Made by a program: the position numbers and the translations under genes. Shown here piece after piece: positions 22,540-33,126 of a stretch of 64,000 bases of DNA (positions are counted from its first letter, which is position 1; each line of letters begins with the position of its first letter). Under the pieces are notes generated by a model that saw only the letters and a list, made by a program, of their open reading frames with translations, was not told where the DNA came from and made no database searches. The DNA comes from Bdellovibrio sp. SKB1291214. GTDB lineage: Bacteria > Bdellovibrionota > Bdellovibrionia > Bdellovibrionales > Bdellovibrionaceae. The stretch is from assembly GCF_002209355.2 (NCBI RefSeq), contig NZ_CP106855.1:2294001-2358000 (forward strand). Direction: 5' to 3'.

Positions 22540-23430
22540 ATGAAGTCCTTAAACCTTTTTTTGGTGGCGGTTCTCGTTTCAGCCTGCGCTCACGCCCAAT
22601 CTAGTGGCATTTACAGAGGGAAAGACCTCCAGCCCCAGTCATTATCCGAGTCCCTTTCCAAAGTCACTCCAGGGTCGATTGTAGTGGTCGGAGAGAACCA
22701 TGGACTGTCAGAGCACCAGCGTCAACAAGTCGAAATCATGACCCAGCTGAGGTCCCAAGGGCACCGGGTTGCCGTTGGAATGGAATTTTTTACATATACT
22801 GATCAGGCTCATGTGGATGCCTATCGTTCCGGGGGCTTGCCAGAGGTCGACTTCCTGAAAACGATTGGTTGGAGCCAGCCCTCCTATGATTTCTATCGTG
22901 AGCAGGCGATTTTTCCGAATCTTTCGGAAGGTGCTAAGACAGTGGCTTTGAATGCTCCACGTACTTTAACTGGCAAAGTCGCAAAGCAAGGTCTTGGCGC
23001 TTTGACAGAGCAGGAAAAAGCATTGTTGCCGCCACAGTTTTCTTTGGGACGTGACTCTTATAAGAAGCGATTTCTGGAGATGATGCCTCATCTGCCAAAT
23101 CCAGCTGCGGGCGAGCGCTACTTTGCAGCGCAGTCTATTTGGGATGACACGATGGCCTGGCGAGCGACGGATTATATTCAGGCGCACCCGGATCAAGTCT
23201 TGGTGATTGTCGTGGGGGAGTTTCATGTTCGTTATGGTGGTGGACTTCCTGATCGCATTCATGTGCGTTCCCCGAACACTCCGGTTGTGACATTTGCGCA
23301 GGTGAACACGGCGGATCTAAGCGAGTCGGAAATCCAGGATGAGGTGAATCCTCATACAGAATATGGAGTCCGCGCCGATTATATATGGTTGGCACCCGCA
23401 CAAAGTCCAGGGGCCGCTCTTGTAAAATGA
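22540..23430 (+). CDS. ChaN-like haem-binding lipoprotein
   Basis: The 296-residue protein has signal peptide or lipobox VSAC at residue 16. It carries the ChaN/DUF399 signature set: VVVGENHGLSEHQ (about residue 50), GMEFFTYTDQ (about 80), the YDFYR region, and VVGEFHVRYGGGLPDRI (about 225), which holds the conserved histidine. ChaN of Campylobacter binds haem dimers, so a role in haem or iron uptake is likely but is a family inference. No Fur box is obvious upstream. GAGGG sits eight bases before the ATG. Confidence 0.85.
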   Translation: MKSLNLFLVAVLVSACAHAQSSGIYRGKDLQPQSLSESLSKVTPGSIVVVGENHGLSEHQRQQVEIMTQLRSQGHRVAVGMEFFTYTDQAHVDAYRSGGLPEVDFLKTIGWSQPSYDFYREQAIFPNLSEGAKTVALNAPRTLTGKVAKQGLGALTEQEKALLPPQFSLGRDSYKKRFLEMMPHLPNPAAGERYFAAQSIWDDTMAWRATDYIQAHPDQVLVIVVGEFHVRYGGGLPDRIHVRSPNTPVVTFAQVNTADLSESEIQDEVNPHTEYGVRADYIWLAPAQSPGAALVK

Positions 23431-23491: not shown

Positions 23492-23899
23492 ATGTTCCCC
23501 CTCGAAACACGCATCCTTGTTATTGATGACATGCCCAGCATTAGAGACTTGGTGAAAAACACGCTGAAAGCGATGGGTTTCAAAAACATTCAAGAAGCGG
23601 GAGATGGAGAGGAAGGACTTAAAGTTCTGATGCAGGCAAATAATCCTGGCTCCAGTATTCAATTAGTCATTTCAGATTGGAACATGCCAAAAATGAAGGG
23701 TCTTGATTTGCTAAAGCACGTTCGTGCGACGGCAGAGTGGCAAAACCTTCCTTTTGTACTATTGACGTCAGAGTCAGAACGCGATCAGGTGACTGAAGCA
23801 GTTTTGGCTGGCGTATCTCAGTATATTGTGAAGCCTTTTTCTGCGAAAATTTTCGAAGACAAATTGAAAGCAGCTTGGACTAAACACAACCAAAAATAA
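23492..23899 (+). CDS. CheY-like single-domain response regulator
   Basis: A 135-residue receiver domain with every key residue: acidic pair VIDDMPS, phospho-acceptor Asp in VISDWNMPKMKG (about residue 62), Thr/Ser in LLTSESE, and KPFS lysine (about 117). There is no output domain, as in CheY. A strong AAGGAG site precedes the ATG. It is the first gene of the signalling cluster and is followed within 16 bases by a membrane protein. A likely phosphodonor is the HPt/ATPase kinase at 24816 on the opposite strand. Confidence 0.93.
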   Translation: MFPLETRILVIDDMPSIRDLVKNTLKAMGFKNIQEAGDGEEGLKVLMQANNPGSSIQLVISDWNMPKMKGLDLLKHVRATAEWQNLPFVLLTSESERDQVTEAVLAGVSQYIVKPFSAKIFEDKLKAAWTKHNQK

Positions 23900-23914
23900 A
23901 GTTAGGCGAGGGGA

Positions 23915-24805
23915 ATGGAACAAACCCAAACGTTTTCACCAAGAGTTGGCCTTAAAAGAACTCTTTCAGATCGCACGCTTTTAAAAGTTATTTATTACCT
24001 TCTTTTTCCTCTGTCGTTGGCGTTTTTGTTGCCGTTTGTGCCAATGATTATCATATCATTTGAAGAGGGCGCCCCCCTGTCGGCCTTAAGTTTCATCGCG
24101 TTGGCTTTACCGATGCCGGCGATCTTGATGTTTCAAGCGTTCTCTTTCTTTAAGCCGCTTTCTTTTACCCAAGTATCGATCTTTCCGGATCGCTTACAGA
24201 TGGTGGGGAAGGATAAAAAGCTTATCGAAGTTCCTTTTTCAGATATCAAGGAAGTAAAGCTTTCGCATTTACCTTATCAAGGTGGTTCTTTCACTTTGGT
24301 GATGAAAGACGGTCAAAGCTATAAGTTCACGGTGATTCTTGAACGTAGTGAATACGTATTGGAAGCAATATCTTCTTTCAATCCGGAATTGTTGCCTCCG
24401 CAATCTTTTGAATTGTATCGTCGTACGGCCATTTGCGCAGACCATAATTATACGCGCATCAATGACGCTCTTAAAAACTGGCGCATTTTGGTGGTGAAAT
24501 ATCTCTTGCTGCCTGTGATCGTTTCTGTGGCTGTGTTATTTCTGGCACCTTACGTGGGGCGACTGTCGGCAGCAGAGGATTGGGATAATGTTTTTCGTGC
24601 CATCACCATCGTGAATTTGGTTCTGGGAGTCGCTTGTTTCTTGATCGCGGCACTTTATATCACGGGCGTGACGAACAAAGCCCTTGTTGCGGAGCCAAAT
24701 AATGCCCGCCGTAATATGGTCATGGAAGGCAAAGTCTATCTGATTGCGAATCTCGTTCACTGGGTCGCGTTCGCAGCCTATGTCGTTTATTTTTTAATGA
24801 GTTAA
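23915..24805 (+). CDS. Membrane protein with a PH-like soluble segment
   Basis: A 296-residue protein with two membrane segments near the N-terminus (about 30-80) and three near the C-terminus (about 190-292). They flank a 100-residue soluble part (FPDRLQMVGKDKK, then VPFSDIKEVKL and SFTLVMKDGQSYKFTV), which looks like a bacterial PH-type barrel. I do not recognise the family. It follows the CheY-like gene by 15 bases and is convergent with the kinase gene, so it may be a membrane partner of the cluster. Confidence 0.75.
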   Translation: MEQTQTFSPRVGLKRTLSDRTLLKVIYYLLFPLSLAFLLPFVPMIIISFEEGAPLSALSFIALALPMPAILMFQAFSFFKPLSFTQVSIFPDRLQMVGKDKKLIEVPFSDIKEVKLSHLPYQGGSFTLVMKDGQSYKFTVILERSEYVLEAISSFNPELLPPQSFELYRRTAICADHNYTRINDALKNWRILVVKYLLLPVIVSVAVLFLAPYVGRLSAAEDWDNVFRAITIVNLVLGVACFLIAALYITGVTNKALVAEPNNARRNMVMEGKVYLIANLVHWVAFAAYVVYFLMS

Positions 24806-24815
24806 ATATTTTTGC

Positions 24816-26765
24816 TTATGCTGCTTGCAATTTTTTAGCAGGCACCAGATCTGTCATGTAAGGCACTTCCACTATCAGGGTTGTGCCTTTTCCATATTCA
24901 GAGCGCACGTGGACCGCGCCTCCTAGATGTTCTGCCGCATGTTTGATGGCATCCATACCCACTCCACGGCCCGAAGTTTCGGTGACTTGTTCGCGAGTGG
25001 AGAACTGACTGTCAAAGATGTGCTGGATAACTTCTTCATCGGATTGTTTAGAAACGTCAAAACCTTTTGAAGTTAATTTTTCTCGAATCACTTTGGCATT
25101 CACGCCCGCACCGTCGTCGTCGATGCGAATTTGCAACCAATCTATGGCATGCTTTCTTAAAAGATTAAATTGCACGATGATTGTACCAGCCGCGGGTTTT
25201 CCTTGCTCCTGACGGACAGTAGGGGCCTCGATGCCATGATCGACAGAGTTACGGAATGAGTGCACGAACGTGGCGAACAGAGTCGAATAAATCTCTGGCA
25301 AAACTTTTAGTTCGGCGTTTTTGAAAATAACGGGGTTTAGTTGCTTGTCTTGTTTCTCTGCCACTTTTTGAGCGACGTCGTTATAGGACTCAAAGAAAGA
25401 GCCTATGGACTCCATCATGAGGTCGTTTAAAAGCAATTGCGCTGCTGTATTTCCCTGCGGAAGTGACTGCAGTTTTTCCACCGTATTTTGCAATTTGCTA
25501 AGTGGAATTTCCAATTGACGCTCTTGAGACAGGGCTTTTTTGCCAAGAATGTCCTCTGATTTTATTAAAAACTTGTGGAAAGAAGACTCAATAAAAAGAG
25601 TTTCGTCTTGCAACTTTTTGTATTGTTCTGCATTTCTAGACTCTTTGAATTCAGAAAGCAGGGTTTCAGCTTTGTGACAGTATTCTGTCATGTCTTGAAT
25701 GGAAAATAGCGCCGCTCCACCTTTTAAGGTGTGCAGTTGGCGAAAAAGGGATTCATCGTCCGCGTTTTCCCAAGAGGCTTTAAGGCCCGATTTTAACTCC
25801 GACAAAAGAGATTCTGACTCACGAACAAAACGACCGATTTGGTTTTTGTTTTGAACCATATTGATGATCAAGTTTGCGTAAGAACGATCGCGCACCGCTT
25901 GTTCCTGAGCTTCAACCAATTTAGTGATATCAGAAGCAACCAGAACCACGCCATCCATTTTTCCTTCCGCATTTCGAAGCGGGAAGTACTCCAAAGATAT
26001 ACGATTGCCTTCAGAGTGTGGATAGGAAGCTGGTCCCAAGGGTGCTAAGTCTTCGAAGGGCAGCATTTCCATGAAAACAGTCTTCATCCACTTTTGGAAG
26101 CCATCCACTTTATTCGCTGGAAGTTTTAGCACATCCCAAATATTTTGACCCTGTGGACGACCTTCGATCGTGTGTTCGCAGGCTTTGGATGTGACTTCCA
26201 AAACTTTACCTTGCTCATTAAAGATTAAGAAGCCTTGGTTTAAACTGTCCAATAGAGCCGTCATCATCTGATTTAAACGTGACAACTCCGCAGTGCGGTC
26301 AGCGACCATTTTTTCCAAGTTTTTAGAATAGTTTTCTAACTGAACTTTAGCGTCTTCAAGATCTTTGATGACGTCTTCTTTTTGTTCAAGCTCGGCGCGA
26401 TATTTCTTTTGCAGGCGTTCTTCCAGAGTTACGTCCCGCACAAAAACGATCCAATTTTTATCACCCATGGAATCAAAGACGGGCTGCAAAGTGATTTGCA
26501 CCTTGCCTTCGCCGCCTTGAGGCGTTTGGAATGTCACTTCTTTATAAGGAGTGGGATCGCAGATATGAATGAGTTTGTCTAAACCTTCTATCGGCTCGCT
26601 GAAAGTAAATAGATCCAAGAACTTCATAGATCCACGAGTGATCTTTCTGACAGAAAGACCGCAAACAATAGCCGCTGTTTCGTTGCAATAGATCACCCTT
26701 TGTTCTGCGTTCAGAACAAAAACCGGTTCTAGCAAGGTGTCGAACAGCGAGTATTGTATTTTCAT
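24816..26765 (-). CDS. PAS/PAS/HPt/ATPase CheA-like histidine kinase
   Basis: A 649-residue cytoplasmic protein. In order: PAS domain (about 8-115), a coiled coil, a second PAS domain (about 165-285), an HPt helix bundle with phospho-histidine in LHTLKGGAALF (about 345), and a CheA-type ATPase with N box NSVDHGIEAP (about 505), G1 DDDGAGVNA and GRGVGMDA. There is no CheW-like P5 domain, so it is not a standard array CheA, and the HPt sits in the middle rather than at the start. It probably phosphorylates the nearby CheY-like or receiver-DUF4388 proteins. The next gene (FecR-like) is immediately upstream on the same strand, one base away. Confidence 0.88.
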   Translation of the reverse strand: MKIQYSLFDTLLEPVFVLNAEQRVIYCNETAAIVCGLSVRKITRGSMKFLDLFTFSEPIEGLDKLIHICDPTPYKEVTFQTPQGGEGKVQITLQPVFDSMGDKNWIVFVRDVTLEERLQKKYRAELEQKEDVIKDLEDAKVQLENYSKNLEKMVADRTAELSRLNQMMTALLDSLNQGFLIFNEQGKVLEVTSKACEHTIEGRPQGQNIWDVLKLPANKVDGFQKWMKTVFMEMLPFEDLAPLGPASYPHSEGNRISLEYFPLRNAEGKMDGVVLVASDITKLVEAQEQAVRDRSYANLIINMVQNKNQIGRFVRESESLLSELKSGLKASWENADDESLFRQLHTLKGGAALFSIQDMTEYCHKAETLLSEFKESRNAEQYKKLQDETLFIESSFHKFLIKSEDILGKKALSQERQLEIPLSKLQNTVEKLQSLPQGNTAAQLLLNDLMMESIGSFFESYNDVAQKVAEKQDKQLNPVIFKNAELKVLPEIYSTLFATFVHSFRNSVDHGIEAPTVRQEQGKPAAGTIIVQFNLLRKHAIDWLQIRIDDDGAGVNAKVIREKLTSKGFDVSKQSDEEVIQHIFDSQFSTREQVTETSGRGVGMDAIKHAAEHLGGAVHVRSEYGKGTTLIVEVPYMTDLVPAKKLQAA

Positions 26766-26766
26766 T

Positions 26767-28617
26767 TTACTTTACAAACGTTTCGTTTTTCTGATGATAG
26801 ACTGTGAACTCTCGTTTACTCGCCCAATCAGAAGGGATATCTCCCTTGGCTTCCGCACGGACGCGCCAATAGATTTTGCCCAGTGGAACTTTGCTCTTAA
26901 TCAAGTAACGATTGTTCGCCAAAGTTGAGGTGTAAAGAATATTCGAGAAGTCTTCTTTGTCAGAAACTTCCACTGTGTATCCTGTAGCACCGGCAACTTT
27001 TTTCCATTCAAGCCAGATGAACGGCTCTTGCTGAGTTTGCAAGAAGATCGACATGTTGTTAAATGGCTCCATCAAAGTAGGAGCGGTGATAGCTGGTCTC
27101 ATTTCTTCAACAAAGATGCTGCCCGTTTCACTTGGAGGACTTAGTTGACCCTTAGGGCTGATTGCATAAACGCGGTAATAACTTTGACCTTTATCCATTT
27201 GTGACCACAAAGTGGCGGTGTCCGACACGTCGAACTGTTGTGGATTTTGGAAATTCAAGTCCTTAGATACTTGCACACGATAGCCACGAGTTTTTGAAAC
27301 AGGTGTCCATTCCAATTTCGGAGCCATCTCGCTAGCGGGTCTGCGCTCTGTAGGGCGAGGGATGCGGAACTTGATATCCTTTGCAACCAATGTGGGACTT
27401 TCTGGAATTGGTTCTTTTTTTGCTGTGACTTGAATTTTAAATGGAACTGCTGCCGACCAAGAAGACACTTTTTTGTCTTGAGTCGTTCCATTGACGCGCA
27501 CCCAATATTCGCCGGACGGCAAGCGAGGGGTTAGGATGTTTTGCACGTAAGAGTTTCCTTCACGTAAAACTTTTTCGAACTTTTCGTCCTGAGAAATTTG
27601 CCAGCGATATGTTTTAAGTAAGGAGTCTGCCGACCAACGAACCTCAGTAGAGATCGCAAGTTGAGAAGGGTCGTCTACTTCAAGTTCCATCTGAAAATTA
27701 GCATTCTGATTAGGCGACGTGATCACTGGAACGTTCAAGTGCAAAAGAGTCACTTGACGAGTTTCAGAAGTTCCCACCTCACCATTGCGATCATAGGCTT
27801 TGACCCGCCAGAAATAGGGACCTGGCTCCAAGGGGTCTGCGATTTCAATTTTTCCGTCAGTGGTTGTTTTTACAACCGCGACGTTATTAAAGTCAGCAGT
27901 CGGCGAAACTTCCATTTCAAAGCGAGCGATGTTGCCGCGACCACGCCAGTTGAACGGCATTTTGTCGTCAGGATTTTCGCGAACATAGGTGGTGTTATTG
28001 GCAGTCAGCAACTCGACCGTGGGTTTCACAAGAGATTTTACACCTTGCGGGGAAACAGCAATGGGTTGCTCTTTATCCAATGACTTACGAACTTTTTTAT
28101 CTTGATAGTTTACCTTACCGGCTAACAGACGTAGGTCGACGTTGCCGGAGTGAGATTTTTTGAACTCGATTTTACCGCCACCATCCAGATTGAATTCTTC
28201 GGCGCCGGATTTGATTTTAATTTGTGAACCTTGAGTGATATCACCCACTAAATTACCGTAACGCAGGTCCAGGGACATCTGACCGTTCTTCATGTTAAGA
28301 GTGATCAGTGAGTTTGGAGCGATACGAATGACAGTGCCATCTTGCAGACGGATTTGCGCTTCAGAACGGTCGCCGGTGTAAATGGAATCATTATCAAAGA
28401 TTTTGTCTTCGCGGTTTGCGGGTAACCAACTGAATGTATCTAGGTTTTTTCTGCGGACGTCGTTTTGCGAAGTCGCTACGTTACCTATCAGTTCCATTTC
28501 ACTTTGATTGCCTTTAGGGAATAGAAGAGAGTCGTCGTACAAGAAGTACGAGAACAACAGCAGTACCAACACGGCCACGCCAAATATCGTTTTCTCTGTT
28601 TTACCTAAACGTTGCAT
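26767..28617 (-). CDS. FecR-domain membrane protein with Ig/FN3-like repeats
   Basis: A 616-residue protein with a single N-terminal membrane anchor (about 12-28), so it is mostly periplasmic. Residues about 75-175 form a FecR domain (DSIYTGDRSEAQIRLQDGTV, then NSLITL and a LRLLAGKV strand). At least three FN3/Ig-like units follow, each with the YxWRVxA/YxVxV strand pattern (GPYFWRVKAYD, SGEYWVRVNG, GKIYWRVRAEA). FecR proteins sense envelope signals; with the kinase directly downstream this may be the sensing partner. That is an inference from context. Confidence 0.8.
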   Translation of the reverse strand: MQRLGKTEKTIFGVAVLVLLLFSYFLYDDSLLFPKGNQSEMELIGNVATSQNDVRRKNLDTFSWLPANREDKIFDNDSIYTGDRSEAQIRLQDGTVIRIAPNSLITLNMKNGQMSLDLRYGNLVGDITQGSQIKIKSGAEEFNLDGGGKIEFKKSHSGNVDLRLLAGKVNYQDKKVRKSLDKEQPIAVSPQGVKSLVKPTVELLTANNTTYVRENPDDKMPFNWRGRGNIARFEMEVSPTADFNNVAVVKTTTDGKIEIADPLEPGPYFWRVKAYDRNGEVGTSETRQVTLLHLNVPVITSPNQNANFQMELEVDDPSQLAISTEVRWSADSLLKTYRWQISQDEKFEKVLREGNSYVQNILTPRLPSGEYWVRVNGTTQDKKVSSWSAAVPFKIQVTAKKEPIPESPTLVAKDIKFRIPRPTERRPASEMAPKLEWTPVSKTRGYRVQVSKDLNFQNPQQFDVSDTATLWSQMDKGQSYYRVYAISPKGQLSPPSETGSIFVEEMRPAITAPTLMEPFNNMSIFLQTQQEPFIWLEWKKVAGATGYTVEVSDKEDFSNILYTSTLANNRYLIKSKVPLGKIYWRVRAEAKGDIPSDWASKREFTVYHQKNETFVK

Positions 28618-28727
28618 AGTTCTCCCCGTAATCTCATCGGCGAAGCAACGATTTTAATTTATGGACCTAGGGCTAACTTATATGAGAATTTCTTTTCGGG
28701 ATTCTTGTTACGAGTCATACTAACTCT

Positions 28728-30560
28728 GTGAAAAAACGTGGCATATCAATTAGATATAAGGTTCTATTGCTTCTAACTTCGATCCCATTGATTACATTGA
28801 CGGCATATCTGGTGCTGGCGATGCGAATCTTTGAAGATGATAAGATTGCCTATGTCTTTGATTCTTCCAGCAGCATGTCGGGAACGATGGCGGCTCAAAT
28901 TAAGACACAGCTCAATGCGGTCCTGGGTACAGCAAAACCCATCTATCAAGATTATCTTTCGGTTTATAAATTCACTCCTGTCGCAAAATCTATTTTTGAT
29001 AATGAGTACAGTATCGAAGACGTGATCGTTTTCTCTCCCGGTGCGAACGGGCAATATCAAAAAGTGGCGGCCCTTGAAAAAGTTCCTGAAGGTGCGGACG
29101 GCCTTTTGAAATCGATCCAGTCCCACTTGCCCATGTATTTGGCAGAAGTTGAAGCCAATCAACGCGTCGTGAAAGTTCCGTTTAATGATGACCGGGTTTT
29201 GATCATGGATAAAGTGATGAACCAAGACAAAACCAAGGCGACCGTCTTTGCCATGCTGGTTCGTATGAGCGAAGCCTCTGAGATGTTCAATGCTGCGACT
29301 TCTCAAAAAATGTATCTGATAGCTAAAGATGGCACCGTGTTGTTCGGACCTGAGGGAATGGTTGGTCAAAAGTTGCAAACGGTGGTGACACCAAACTTCC
29401 TTGCAGACACGGGCAGCAAAGTTGCTCAAGGTGCTGAAACAGTTAAGGCCGGAAATGGCGTTGATTACTTGGTGTCATTTTCTAAGGCGGGATTTGGTGA
29501 TTTGACAGTTGTTACTACAATTGAAAAATCCAAAGCTTTAGGTGCCGTTCAAATTCTAATTAGAAAATCTTTGATCTTTTTCGGTATTTTGATTTCTTTG
29601 ACGGTGATTATCAGTTTGTTTGCTTCAACAGGTATCACACATGCTCTTACCCAATTGTTTACCGCAACTAAAAAAGTTTCAGAAGGTGATTTCAACGTAC
29701 GAGTGGATGTTTCCTCGAATGATGAAGTTGGAAGCTTGGCTGATAATTTCAATTTGATGGCGGCTGAGGTTTCTCGTTTGCTTGAACAAACTGCTGAAAA
29801 AGCACGTATGGAATCGGAGCTGCAAACAGCGAAAACGGTGCAGGAAACTCTGTTCCCAGATGCGCGCGCAAAAATCGGTCCTCTTTCAATTGCGGGTTTT
29901 TACGAACCGGCATCTGAGTGCGGTGGTGACTGGTGGCATTACTGTAAAGTGGGCGAGAAAATTTTCTTGTGGATCGGGGATGCAACAGGGCATGGAGCTC
30001 CCGCAGCATTAATTACTAGTGCTGCGAAATCAGCATCGACGATTATTGAGCGCTTGGATATTTCACCGGCAAAAGCGATGGAACTTTTAAATCGCTCTAT
30101 TTATGATGTTTCCAAAGGTCGCATCATGATGACATTTTTTCTTGCGAGCTTTGATTTGCAGACGGGTCGTTTCGTTTATTGTAATGCCTCTCACGAGGCT
30201 CCGTTTTTGATTAAAAAATCGGACGATCCTTTAAAGAAAAAAGACTTAGTGGCCCTGAACGAAGTGAATAATCCCAGATTGGGACAGGCCCGCGATTCTC
30301 TTTATGAGCAAACTAGCATTCAGGTATCCCCAGGTGATGCAGTTTTCTTTTATACTGATGGTATCCCTGACATCCAAGATCCAGGGAAGACCGCATGGGG
30401 AGAGCGGGAATTTATTAAAGCACTTATCGCTGCGAATAAGGACTTCCCAGCGGTCGGTGACTCGGTCGAGCGTTTCGCTAAGAGCTTTCAGGCGCACCGC
30501 CAAGGGGCCCCTTTAGTCGATGACGTGACCTTTTTTGTAGTGAAAAACGACGGCGTTTAG
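28728..30560 (+). CDS. Membrane-bound HAMP-SpoIIE (PP2C-like) phosphatase
   Basis: The 610-residue protein starts at GTG 28728. A membrane segment (about 13-33), an extracytoplasmic sensing region (about 35-275), a second membrane segment (about 278-300), a HAMP domain (about 300-352), a helical linker, then a SpoIIE/RsbU phosphatase domain (about 375-605) with the metal aspartates in CGGDWW and WIGDATGHG and a later TDGIPD. Such enzymes dephosphorylate STAS anti-anti-sigma factors in partner switching. The STAS-like gene follows 37 bases downstream. It diverges from the FecR gene. Confidence 0.9.
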   Translation: MKKRGISIRYKVLLLLTSIPLITLTAYLVLAMRIFEDDKIAYVFDSSSSMSGTMAAQIKTQLNAVLGTAKPIYQDYLSVYKFTPVAKSIFDNEYSIEDVIVFSPGANGQYQKVAALEKVPEGADGLLKSIQSHLPMYLAEVEANQRVVKVPFNDDRVLIMDKVMNQDKTKATVFAMLVRMSEASEMFNAATSQKMYLIAKDGTVLFGPEGMVGQKLQTVVTPNFLADTGSKVAQGAETVKAGNGVDYLVSFSKAGFGDLTVVTTIEKSKALGAVQILIRKSLIFFGILISLTVIISLFASTGITHALTQLFTATKKVSEGDFNVRVDVSSNDEVGSLADNFNLMAAEVSRLLEQTAEKARMESELQTAKTVQETLFPDARAKIGPLSIAGFYEPASECGGDWWHYCKVGEKIFLWIGDATGHGAPAALITSAAKSASTIIERLDISPAKAMELLNRSIYDVSKGRIMMTFFLASFDLQTGRFVYCNASHEAPFLIKKSDDPLKKKDLVALNEVNNPRLGQARDSLYEQTSIQVSPGDAVFFYTDGIPDIQDPGKTAWGEREFIKALIAANKDFPAVGDSVERFAKSFQAHRQGAPLVDDVTFFVVKNDGV

Positions 30561-30597
30561 TAATATAGGAATGTTCTTGTAACGGGAGATTTTAAGG

Positions 30598-31068
30598 ATG
30601 AGTAAACTCGACGTAAAAATGGACAAAGCAGCTAGTAAGTTGTCTGTTCAGATGAATGGAACAATCGATGAAGATGTCGATTTTTCGCAATTCGACTTGT
30701 CTGGTAACCAGGCAATTGAAATGGAACTTGGCGGCGTTAAGAGTATCAATTCCTGTGGTATCCGTGAGTGGATCAAATGGATGGGAACTGCGGGATCAGC
30801 TAACATCACATTCGCAAATTGCCCGAAAGTGATCGTAGATCAAATTAACATGGTAGACGGGTTCTTGCCGGGCTCTGCTAAAGTAAGTTCTTTCTTTGTG
30901 CCTTACTATAATGACGATTCGGGCGCAGAGAAAAACGTTCTATTCCGATACGGTACCGAATTCAAAGAGGGGTCTGTGACGCCTCCCGAAAGTGTAAAAG
31001 ATGAAGATGGTAACGAAATGGAAATGGACGTCATCGAGTCCAAATACTTCAAGTTCATTAAGAAGTAA
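30598..31068 (+). CDS. STAS-like anti-anti-sigma-type protein
   Basis: The 156-residue protein has an N-terminal STAS-like fold (about 1-105). The segment SINSCGIREWIKW corresponds to the (D/N)SxG phosphorylatable loop, followed by ITFANCPKVIVDQINMV. In relatives I know from other deltaproteobacteria-type genomes the part after VPYY carries a CxxC; here it is NDDSGAEKN, so that metal site appears lost. The C-terminus is acidic. It lies directly after the SpoIIE phosphatase and is the natural substrate candidate. No anti-sigma kinase of the RsbW type is seen in the window. Confidence 0.78.
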   Translation: MSKLDVKMDKAASKLSVQMNGTIDEDVDFSQFDLSGNQAIEMELGGVKSINSCGIREWIKWMGTAGSANITFANCPKVIVDQINMVDGFLPGSAKVSSFFVPYYNDDSGAEKNVLFRYGTEFKEGSVTPPESVKDEDGNEMEMDVIESKYFKFIKK

Positions 31069-31107
31069 AATTCCTCAACCATAGTCTAGGTTGATGGTCT
31101 AGAAAGT

Positions 31108-31143
31108 GAAGCGAGCCCTGGTTCCCAGGCTCGCTTTCTTCAT
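31108..31143 (+). terminator. Intrinsic terminator after the STAS-like gene
   Basis: GCGAGCC / GGCTCGC stem extended by TGG/CCA with one bulged base, followed by a pyrimidine-rich tract. Confidence 0.75.
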
Positions 31144-31185
31144 TTTAACCTTCATTTACGAGCATTTATTTCCGACAAGAGATTC

Positions 31186-33126
31186 GTGAGCGATGCAAAA
31201 AGTAAAATCCTTATTTTGGAAGATGACGAATCCGTCTCTACGGCACTGAAGGAAATTCTGAGTCGTGCGGGGCATTCTGTCCTTGTTGCAAGCCGTCCTG
31301 ATGAGGCGACGGGAATGCTGACATCTAATAATATCGAATTCCTTTTCTGTGACTGTATGTTGCCGCAAATGACGGGGATGGATTTTATCGAACGCATTCG
31401 TTCGGAGCATCCAAACTTGCGTTTTAAAGTTGTTTTGATGAGCGGTATCTTTACAGATAAGTCTTTCATTCAAGAAGCAACACAGAAAACTCAGGCTTTG
31501 GCATTCTTGCGTAAGCCATTTGAAATGGATCAAGTATTGAAACTGGTGAAGAAGGAAGCTTCTTCACGTGAAGAAACTACGAGTGCTCGTAAGCTTCTTT
31601 ACCAAATGTTCTCCAATCCTAAAGTGACTAACCGCCAAAAGCGTAAAGTTATTGAGTCGATTGAAGAGGTCAGCGGTTTTGACTTGCCGTTCTTGTATTC
31701 ACTGTTAGTGGAAACAAAGAGCAGTGGTTATTTAAATATTTATAATTCTGATGGATCTGTCTCTGGTATTTCGTTCTGTAACGGTAACATCGTAGGTGTT
31801 GACGTTGACGATAAAACGACATTCTTGGGGGAGATGTTGATCCAATCAGGCTATGCCACTCCGACGGACGTGCAAACCGCTTTGCGCGATAAAAACAACC
31901 GTCGTATTGGTAATTATCTCATCCAAAACAATCAACTAAGTCCGCATGCCTTCGATTTGATCTTGATGGAGCAAATGAATATCCGTCTGGTGAAAACGAT
32001 CGTGGATGAAAAGATCCGCGTGAATTTTGCGGCTGCCGAAGTTGAAATGTCCAATCCGTCGATTGATGCTGACGCCTTGTCATTGTACCTGCACGACTGG
32101 ATTGCTTCGAAATTGTCTTTGAAATGGTTGAAGTCTTTCTACATGATTTGGACGGGCAACGTGATTGCGAAAAGTCCAACATTCGTCGAGGATCATCCGG
32201 CATTAAGCGTGTCGATGATTAAATCTTTGGATGGCTTCATGGCTAAGATTGACGGGGAAACAACGATCAATAAGCTTTTGGATGTCAAAGGCTATACAGA
32301 GATCGGTGTTTACAAAGCGGTCCGCTTCCTATTGACCAAGGGTTTGATTGTGTTCGCTCAAAGAGCGGCCTTTGAAAGTCCTGAGGTTCAATTGAAATCC
32401 TTGCAGAAAGTGTGGGCCAACCTTGAAGGTAAAAACGGTTTTGAAATCGTTTCCTACATGGAAAGCGGTACGATGGGATCTTCTTTGGAGAGTGTCCTTG
32501 AGGATTTCGTAACTGCATTGGGACCTGAGCCTGCTGATCCAAAATCAGAGGTGGGTATTTTGTGGACGCGTATCAAGAAAGAAGCAGAAGATGCAGTTCT
32601 GGTTGCGCAGGACTCGAATAAAGCGACTCAATTCCGTCAGGAAGCAAAACGCTCTGAAGCGGAAAACAAACTTAAAGCCAACAGCATGTTGGAAGATGTA
32701 AAAAAAGCATTGCAGTACACGCAATACGCAAAAGCTATGACGATGGTGGCAGAGATTGCAAAATTGAACCCACAACAAGCACAGCTTTTCCTTTATAGCT
32801 CATGGGCTAAATTGGGTGTGGCGCAAACTTCAGACGGCGTTCGCCGTGCAGCTTTAAGTAAAGAAGTAGAAATGGAGATGATGCAAGTCCCTCCAGATGA
32901 GCGCTATGATGCTTTGTATCCGTTTGTTATGGGGCTTTTCCAAAAAGTCCGTGGTGATGCGGCGGGCGCTCGTAAACAGCTTGAAAAAGCCATTGCAATG
33001 GATGCTTCTTTCATGTCGGCCCGTCGGGAACTATCGACATTGAGTGCGGCAGCGAAAAATCAAAAGCAAGACGTCTTCAATATGGACTTGAAACAAATGG
33101 TTTCAGGTTTCTTCAAAAAGAAATAG
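31186..33126 (+). CDS. Receiver-DUF4388-TPR signalling protein
   Basis: A 646-residue protein from GTG 31186. Residues about 5-125 are a receiver (LEDDESV, phospho-Asp in FCDCMLPQ, LMSG, RKPFE). A DUF4388/PATAN-like module follows (about 160-290: KSSGYLNIYNSDG, then FCNGNIVGVDVDD and GEMLIQSGY), then a helical region and TPR-like helices at about 500-625 (ALQYTQYAKAMTMVAEI, ARKQLEKAIAMD). Such proteins link phosphorelays to motility or surface behaviour in other bacteria. The gene ends at a giant hairpin shared with the convergent gene. Confidence 0.82.
   Translation: MSDAKSKILILEDDESVSTALKEILSRAGHSVLVASRPDEATGMLTSNNIEFLFCDCMLPQMTGMDFIERIRSEHPNLRFKVVLMSGIFTDKSFIQEATQKTQALAFLRKPFEMDQVLKLVKKEASSREETTSARKLLYQMFSNPKVTNRQKRKVIESIEEVSGFDLPFLYSLLVETKSSGYLNIYNSDGSVSGISFCNGNIVGVDVDDKTTFLGEMLIQSGYATPTDVQTALRDKNNRRIGNYLIQNNQLSPHAFDLILMEQMNIRLVKTIVDEKIRVNFAAAEVEMSNPSIDADALSLYLHDWIASKLSLKWLKSFYMIWTGNVIAKSPTFVEDHPALSVSMIKSLDGFMAKIDGETTINKLLDVKGYTEIGVYKAVRFLLTKGLIVFAQRAAFESPEVQLKSLQKVWANLEGKNGFEIVSYMESGTMGSSLESVLEDFVTALGPEPADPKSEVGILWTRIKKEAEDAVLVAQDSNKATQFRQEAKRSEAENKLKANSMLEDVKKALQYTQYAKAMTMVAEIAKLNPQQAQLFLYSSWAKLGVAQTSDGVRRAALSKEVEMEMMQVPPDERYDALYPFVMGLFQKVRGDAAGARKQLEKAIAMDASFMSARRELSTLSAAAKNQKQDVFNMDLKQMVSGFFKKK

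Follow-up and report, generated by a model that had tools for sequence, protein, structure and literature searches.

A Bdellovibrio gene neighbourhood that probably couples a SiaABC/Rsb-like partner switch to a CheA-like phosphorelay

A window of 64,000 nucleotides from the genome of Bdellovibrio sp. SKB1291214 (contig NZ_CP106855.1, positions 2,294,001 to 2,358,000; 3.68 Mb, single contig) was examined for the gene cluster at window positions 23,492 to 33,126. A first-pass annotation, made from the sequence alone, had read this cluster as seven genes in which a histidine phosphorelay and a partner switch lie side by side and may act jointly. All seven open reading frames are present at the ends given there, and are listed below in window coordinates.

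23492..23899, + strand: CheY-like single-domain receiver (Response_reg match, conserved Asp62, kinase gene as neighbour in most loci)
23915..24805, + strand: membrane protein labelled PH-like, a recent non-core insertion found in one clade
24816..26765, - strand: PAS-PAS-HPt-HATPase kinase with a CheA-like ATPase and no CheW domain (Pfam, NCBIfam CheA equivalogs), orthologue of Bd2406
26767..28617, - strand: FecR/Ig-like envelope protein, divergent from the SpoIIE gene (Pfam, gene neighbourhoods)
28728..30560, + strand: HAMP-SpoIIE (PP2C) sensor phosphatase (Pfam, conserved metal-binding Asp residues)
30598..31068, + strand: STAS-fold protein with presumed phosphosite Ser52 (fold match of the predicted model), orthologue of Bd2403
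31186..33126, + strand: REC-DUF4388(PATAN)-MshEN-like protein with a TPR-like end (Pfam, motif scan), apparent orthologue of Bd2402

By strand these genes form three transcription units, CheY with the PH-like gene (+), FecR with the kinase (-) and SpoIIE, STAS and REC-DUF4388 (+). Pfam bore out most of the domain assignments. The CheY-like receiver matched Response_reg (E 6.5e-24), and its phospho-acceptor Asp62 was kept in all 31 aligned orthologues scoring above 200 bits. The phosphatase contained HAMP (2.6e-10) and SpoIIE (3e-33) domains with a sub-threshold dCache_1 match, and its metal-binding aspartates were conserved in 82/82 aligned sequences, including those from loci that lack the gene X described below. 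In the envelope protein the FecR domain was recovered (1e-7), while the Ig-like part of the label drew sub-threshold matches only. FecR also lies beside SpoIIE in other families of the phylum, and another HAMP-SpoIIE gene of the source genome has a FecR-like gene diverging from it (L205:3162-5718), comparable to the pair in the window. The output protein gave a clear REC match (2.8e-18) and a DUF4388 match just above the cut-off (25.5 against 25 bits); no Pfam match was obtained for the TPR that had been proposed in the window copy, nor for MshEN. The phospho-residues are kept in the receivers of the locus. The PH-like label found no database match in its favour.

The kinase matched PAS_4 in two stretches, Hpt (5.8e-12) and HATPase_c (4.4e-15), and CheA equivalogs of NCBIfam matched its ATPase part. 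The protein ends shortly past the ATPase domain, with no Pfam match to CheW at E-values up to 1 and none to the CheA dimerisation domain, as the first-pass annotation had proposed for CheW. His345 of the HPt domain was found in 64/64 aligned orthologues, the 65th having a gap at this position. The kinase shares with the CheA chemotaxis kinases a phospho-accepting histidine and a CheA-like ATPase, and differs from them by lacking the CheW-like (P5) coupling domain.

The STAS-like protein has 156 residues and no Pfam or NCBIfam match, and a profile search of the PDB placed four STAS-type entries on top with weak E-values of 0.02 to 0.3. Its predicted structure, with a mean pLDDT (model confidence score) of 94, matched SpoIIAA, RsbV, TM1442 and other STAS structures with a probability of 1.00, in agreement with the initial assignment. 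An Asn51-Ser52 pair was invariant in the alignment (97/97), and Ser52 is presumably equivalent to Ser58 of SpoIIAA. Two marks of an Rsb/Sia-type partner switch, a STAS fold with an invariant serine and a PP2C phosphatase with intact metal-binding residues, are present at the locus. An output through a sigma factor was considered and rejected, as the conserved module contains no sigma gene. Elsewhere in the genome an extracytoplasmic function (ECF) sigma factor gene lies about 1 kb upstream of a STAS paralogue (L204:3226-5348, C1 about 81-83 kb).

The conservation of the neighbourhood was examined in 118 genomes of relatives. Matches to the CheY-like receiver and to REC-DUF4388 were found in all 118, to SpoIIE in 110, to the kinase in 107, to STAS in 88, to gene X in 88 and to the PH-like protein in 24; because paralogues are counted here as well, membership was decided by position. 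Neighbourhoods were taken for most of the 88 STAS-bearing relatives (80 loci, then more). Within the genus the order is CheY, the PH-like gene where present, kinase and FecR on the opposite strand, SpoIIE, STAS and REC-DUF4388. Four of the 24 genomes of the genus carry the PH-like gene here, all in one clade, a distribution that rules it out as a core member; it is a late insertion and the six other genes are old partners. The original set of seven is further altered in that an ancestral gene for a presumed serine kinase, X, has gone from the locus. In a distant family of the order (f4), represented by all 14 loci with a STAS match and so selected for holding STAS, the genes lie on one strand in the order STAS, kinase, CheY and REC-DUF4388, preceded by SpoIIE and X where SpoIIE is present. 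The kinase was near STAS in 14/14 of these loci, CheY in 13, REC-DUF4388 in 12, SpoIIE in five and FecR in two, whereas each of 46 other window genes, which served as a local control, was found in 0/14, indicating that the linkage is not leftover synteny. In 15 loci with both genes on one strand, STAS and kinase overlapped or were separated by at most 16 bp. The linkage is far above the local control.

Outside the order, a selection of 20 loci was made by hand among 243 listed genomes, and 12 of these, from another family (f12), were used as a set. In all 12, STAS adjoins a gene that matches the kinase profile and a receiver, which may be fused or stand alone; four of these kinases were run through Pfam and proved to be HisKA-type, three with a fused receiver. 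A GGDEF protein occupies the kinase slot in three further relatives by profile match, two of them confirmed by Pfam. SiaABCD-like sets, in which SpoIIE, X, STAS and FecR lie beside a PAS-GGDEF gene, were seen at L192:10001-15995, L193/L231 and L220:2287-7597, with GGDEF in L192 and L220 confirmed by Pfam. The module also occurs on a Bdellovibrionaceae-like contig titled Streptomyces griseus (L145, CALQIT020000074.1), probably a mislabelled bin. Three neighbours were rejected as members: genes for ChaN-like, OMB-like and AAA_28 proteins accompany the locus in 10, 10 and 7 of 15 other-genus loci of the family, but in 0/14 f4 loci. The ChaN-like gene of the window (22540-23430) lies upstream of CheY on the same strand.

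Many outgroups carry gene X, of about 275 codons, between SpoIIE and STAS. Almost no Pfam match was obtained for it, none of 10 copies scanned matched HATPase_c_2, and a sequence search of the PDB returned no relevant match. The question was resolved by a fold search, in which the predicted structure (pLDDT 92) had SiaB, SpoIIAB and RsbW among its best matches, SiaB being the top entry in the PDB. The X profile, from which one row (L098) was dropped as wrong frame, contains invariant E, N, D and G residues in an order that we take to be that of the N, G1 and G2 boxes of GHKL ATPases. The putative GHKL kinase family behind X is almost invisible to Pfam. Three genomes encode an X-STAS fusion, and several others join X to SpoIIE. 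On the SpoIIE tree the absence of X comprises one clade of 36 rows, which holds the whole genus, and a few scattered cases, requiring six changes; in L236 and L237 X was called absent by score threshold and may be diverged instead of lost. X was therefore lost from the locus before Bdellovibrio arose, and the window locus has no copy. The invariance of Ser52 and of the phosphatase ligands leads us to expect a kinase acting in trans. An X-family protein is kept in 36/37 genomes of the X-less clade, and the only such gene in this genome encodes 476 residues with a cyclic nucleotide (cNMP)-binding domain and a weak REC-like stretch, which makes it the best candidate for the replacement of X. A second possible source in this genome is an RsbR/RsbS/RsbT-like cluster with serine-kinase-like ATPases, after which come a kinase-phosphatase fusion and hybrid histidine kinases (L206:5539-11654, C1 about 2.056-2.062 Mb).

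The kinase and the receiver were also lost jointly. One genus (g3) has no kinase orthologue, only weak matches, and its DUF4388 protein lacks REC in the 6/6 loci examined, while REC is present in 58/58 intact REC-DUF4388 homologues of kinase-bearing genomes. A split copy was excluded from the 58; this gene, in L069 (G036), is in pieces with an internal TAG, through mutation or assembly error. The same genus keeps FecR, SpoIIE, STAS and, in four of the six loci, X. The joint loss suggests that the REC domain of the DUF4388 protein is a target of the kinase.

The genes were mapped to B. bacteriovorus HD100 through published positions. One host-independent isolate carries a Gly to Glu change at HD100 position 2,309,751, assigned to Bd2403, and a Thr to Pro change at 2,309,974, for which the locus cell is empty in the published table (PMC3013116). 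Within the STAS gene these positions fall in codons 138 (GGG) and 64 (ACG). In the HD100 sequence the kinase copy has AAA at codon 306, which in the laboratory HD100 strain is reported to be a stop directly before the HPt domain of Bd2406; strains 109J and Tiberius have full-length genes (PMC6428892). These codon matches identify STAS as Bd2403 and the kinase as Bd2406, which is described as a PAS/HPT/HATPase protein (PMC6428892). The REC-DUF4388 gene fits Bd2402 by gene order, by domains and by a primer site for bd2400 that lies about 2.6 kb beyond it. Bd2402 has been characterised as an MshEN-containing response regulator that binds cyclic di-GMP (c-di-GMP) tightly (PMC5013675). The two STAS changes were rejected as a cause of host independence, since the original study places the cause of the phenotype in the hit locus and reports that the other 18 changes are all missing from one further isolate (PMC3013116). 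In a simulation of 18 random changes with assumed gene lengths some gene was struck twice in about 5% of cases, and a gene this short in 0.1%, which is suggestive only. The parts of the published accounts available treat Bd2402 and Bd2406 apart, without Bd2403-Bd2405 or a module (PMC5013675, PMC6428892), and the open-licence literature searched contained none that joins Bd2402-Bd2406 into one module. Apart from reverse transcription PCR of bd2406 (PMC6428892), the available parts of the literature searched yielded no expression data for Bd2402-Bd2406.

From gene context, the genes probably work as one signalling module feeding a c-di-GMP-binding protein. The joint pathway of the first-pass annotation is in this respect backed, and gains support from the operon structure in distant relatives, the gene fusions and the shared loss of kinase and receiver. 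On this reading an old module of the Bdellovibrionota would couple a serine partner switch to a histidine phosphorelay, and the locus would be its version in Bdellovibrio. The HAMP-SpoIIE phosphatase, which faces the envelope and may be adjusted by the divergently encoded FecR/Ig protein, would remove phosphate from Ser52 of STAS, and the GHKL serine kinase X would put it back; ancestrally X stood between SpoIIE and STAS, and the Bdellovibrio lineage would need a substitute in trans. In parallel, the cytosolic PAS-HPt-ATPase kinase would phosphorylate CheY and Bd2402, the latter on its REC domain; Bd2402 is reported to bind c-di-GMP as well. In one phospho-state STAS may bind Bd2402 or its partners, so that Bd2402 would sum three inputs and relay them through DUF4388/TPR contacts. 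The anatomy, neighbourhoods, fusions and conservation are observed; from them we infer the phosphotransfer targets, the phosphorylation of Ser52, the trans-acting kinase and the STAS target. We hold with moderate confidence that a SiaABC/Rsb-like switch is coupled here to a CheA-like phosphorelay and that the two converge on Bd2402. Surface motility or prey contact as the output, suggested at the outset, is a guess with weak published support: Bd2402 is reported to bind c-di-GMP and the N-terminus of Bd2406 contacts RomR in a two-hybrid test, against which stands the normal predation of the bd2406 deletion described below.

Several points weigh against this coupling. The partner switch can work alone, as the kinase-less genus shows, and the losses of kinase and receiver are confined to that genus and so are probably one event. 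SpoIIE is away from STAS in 9/14 f4 loci and FecR in 12/14, and neither a sigma factor nor a known direct STAS target is encoded at the locus. The two MshEN motifs (RLGxx..LxxxLxxQ, canonical spacing about 29 residues) are matched imperfectly at 213 and 240, with 13/22 key positions, a score attained by 0.05% of 2000 shuffles; the stretch is near-identical between the window protein and the HD100 copy. Deletion of bd2406 in HD100 caused no predation defect, in a strain that already has a truncated kinase (PMC6428892). The switch without the kinase, the remote SpoIIE genes and the three transcription units of the window would also be expected if a kinase/CheY/REC-DUF4388 relay and a SpoIIE/STAS switch merely shared a neighbourhood and expression timing, with separate outputs. 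We consider such independence unlikely, as the STAS and kinase genes overlap across f4, another kinase type fills the same slot in f12, and the receiver was lost along with the kinase.

That last loss also bears on an arrangement in which the phosphorelay lies upstream, phospho-CheY controlling the phosphatase, X or STAS and REC-DUF4388 being one of several outputs. The position of CheY next to the kinase in most loci and the weak REC-like region of the X paralogue are consistent with this, and there is a precedent in Pseudomonas, where the balance between phosphatase and kinase in HsbR depends on a histidine phosphotransfer protein (PMC6482189); but SpoIIE here has no REC domain and the REC lost with the kinase belongs to the DUF4388 protein, making this order of events unlikely. 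It is improbable that the switch is a relic in the Bdellovibrio lineage, with X gone and STAS an unphosphorylated, fixed scaffold: X is absent from the locus throughout the 36-row clade, but Ser52 and the SpoIIE metal ligands stay invariant in its X-less loci, an X-family protein remains in all but one of its genomes, and the separate RsbR/S/T-like cluster offers serine-kinase-like ATPases. Bd2406 was put forward earlier as the kinase of RomR, whose receiver specificity residues resemble those of Rhodobacter CheY1 and which is contacted by Bd2406 residues 1-305 in a two-hybrid test (PMC6428892). That the kinase is ancestrally a RomR kinase with incidental partner-switch neighbours is nevertheless very improbable, since RomR localisation and predation are normal without bd2406 and the RomR receiver lacks key residues (PMC6428892), whereas the receivers at the locus itself retain theirs.

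The coupled reading places three pieces in one testable pathway: an orphan c-di-GMP-binding regulator, a kinase truncated in HD100, and the unnamed STAS protein that bears two missense changes in one host-independent isolate. It suggests that the reference strain HD100 runs on a shortened form of the circuit, and strains with an intact kinase would be the better test ground. A wider proposition is possible but doubtful, namely that a phylum-wide Bdellovibrionota module unites a serine-phosphorylation switch, a chemoreceptor-free CheA-like His-Asp relay and c-di-GMP in one operon read out by a pole-steering REC-DUF4388-MshEN protein, with Bd2402, Bd2403 and Bd2406 as one circuit gating predatory versus axenic life.

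When the module was compared with known systems, the folds of STAS and X matched those of SpoIIAA/SpoIIAB and RsbV/RsbW, the counterparts in SpoIIE-SpoIIAB-SpoIIAA and RsbU-RsbW-RsbV; the module differs in having no sigma factor and in the length of X, which at about 275 residues has an extra N-terminal part. The HptB-HsbR-HsbA(-HsbD) system of Pseudomonas aeruginosa likewise combines a histidine phosphorelay with a PP2C/STAS switch and involves c-di-GMP (PMC6482189). There REC, PP2C and kinase domains share one protein, whereas here the phosphatase, X and the receivers each have a gene of their own, with an envelope-facing phosphatase. SiaABC(D) of P. aeruginosa has a sensor PP2C phosphatase, a GHKL-type kinase, a STAS-like phosphoprotein and a tie to c-di-GMP (PMC7647112), and SiaA was the best NCBIfam match of the SpoIIE protein (E 3.9e-17, below the cut-off). 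SiaC is phosphorylated on Thr68 where the window STAS has the presumed site Ser52, and the Sia system, as described there, contains neither the CheA-type kinase nor the receivers found here (PMC7647112). Its output is a diguanylate cyclase, in contrast to the c-di-GMP-binding REC protein of this module, except in the relatives with GGDEF in the kinase slot. The parts resemble those of SiaABC and HptB-HsbR-HsbA, but they are arranged differently from either.

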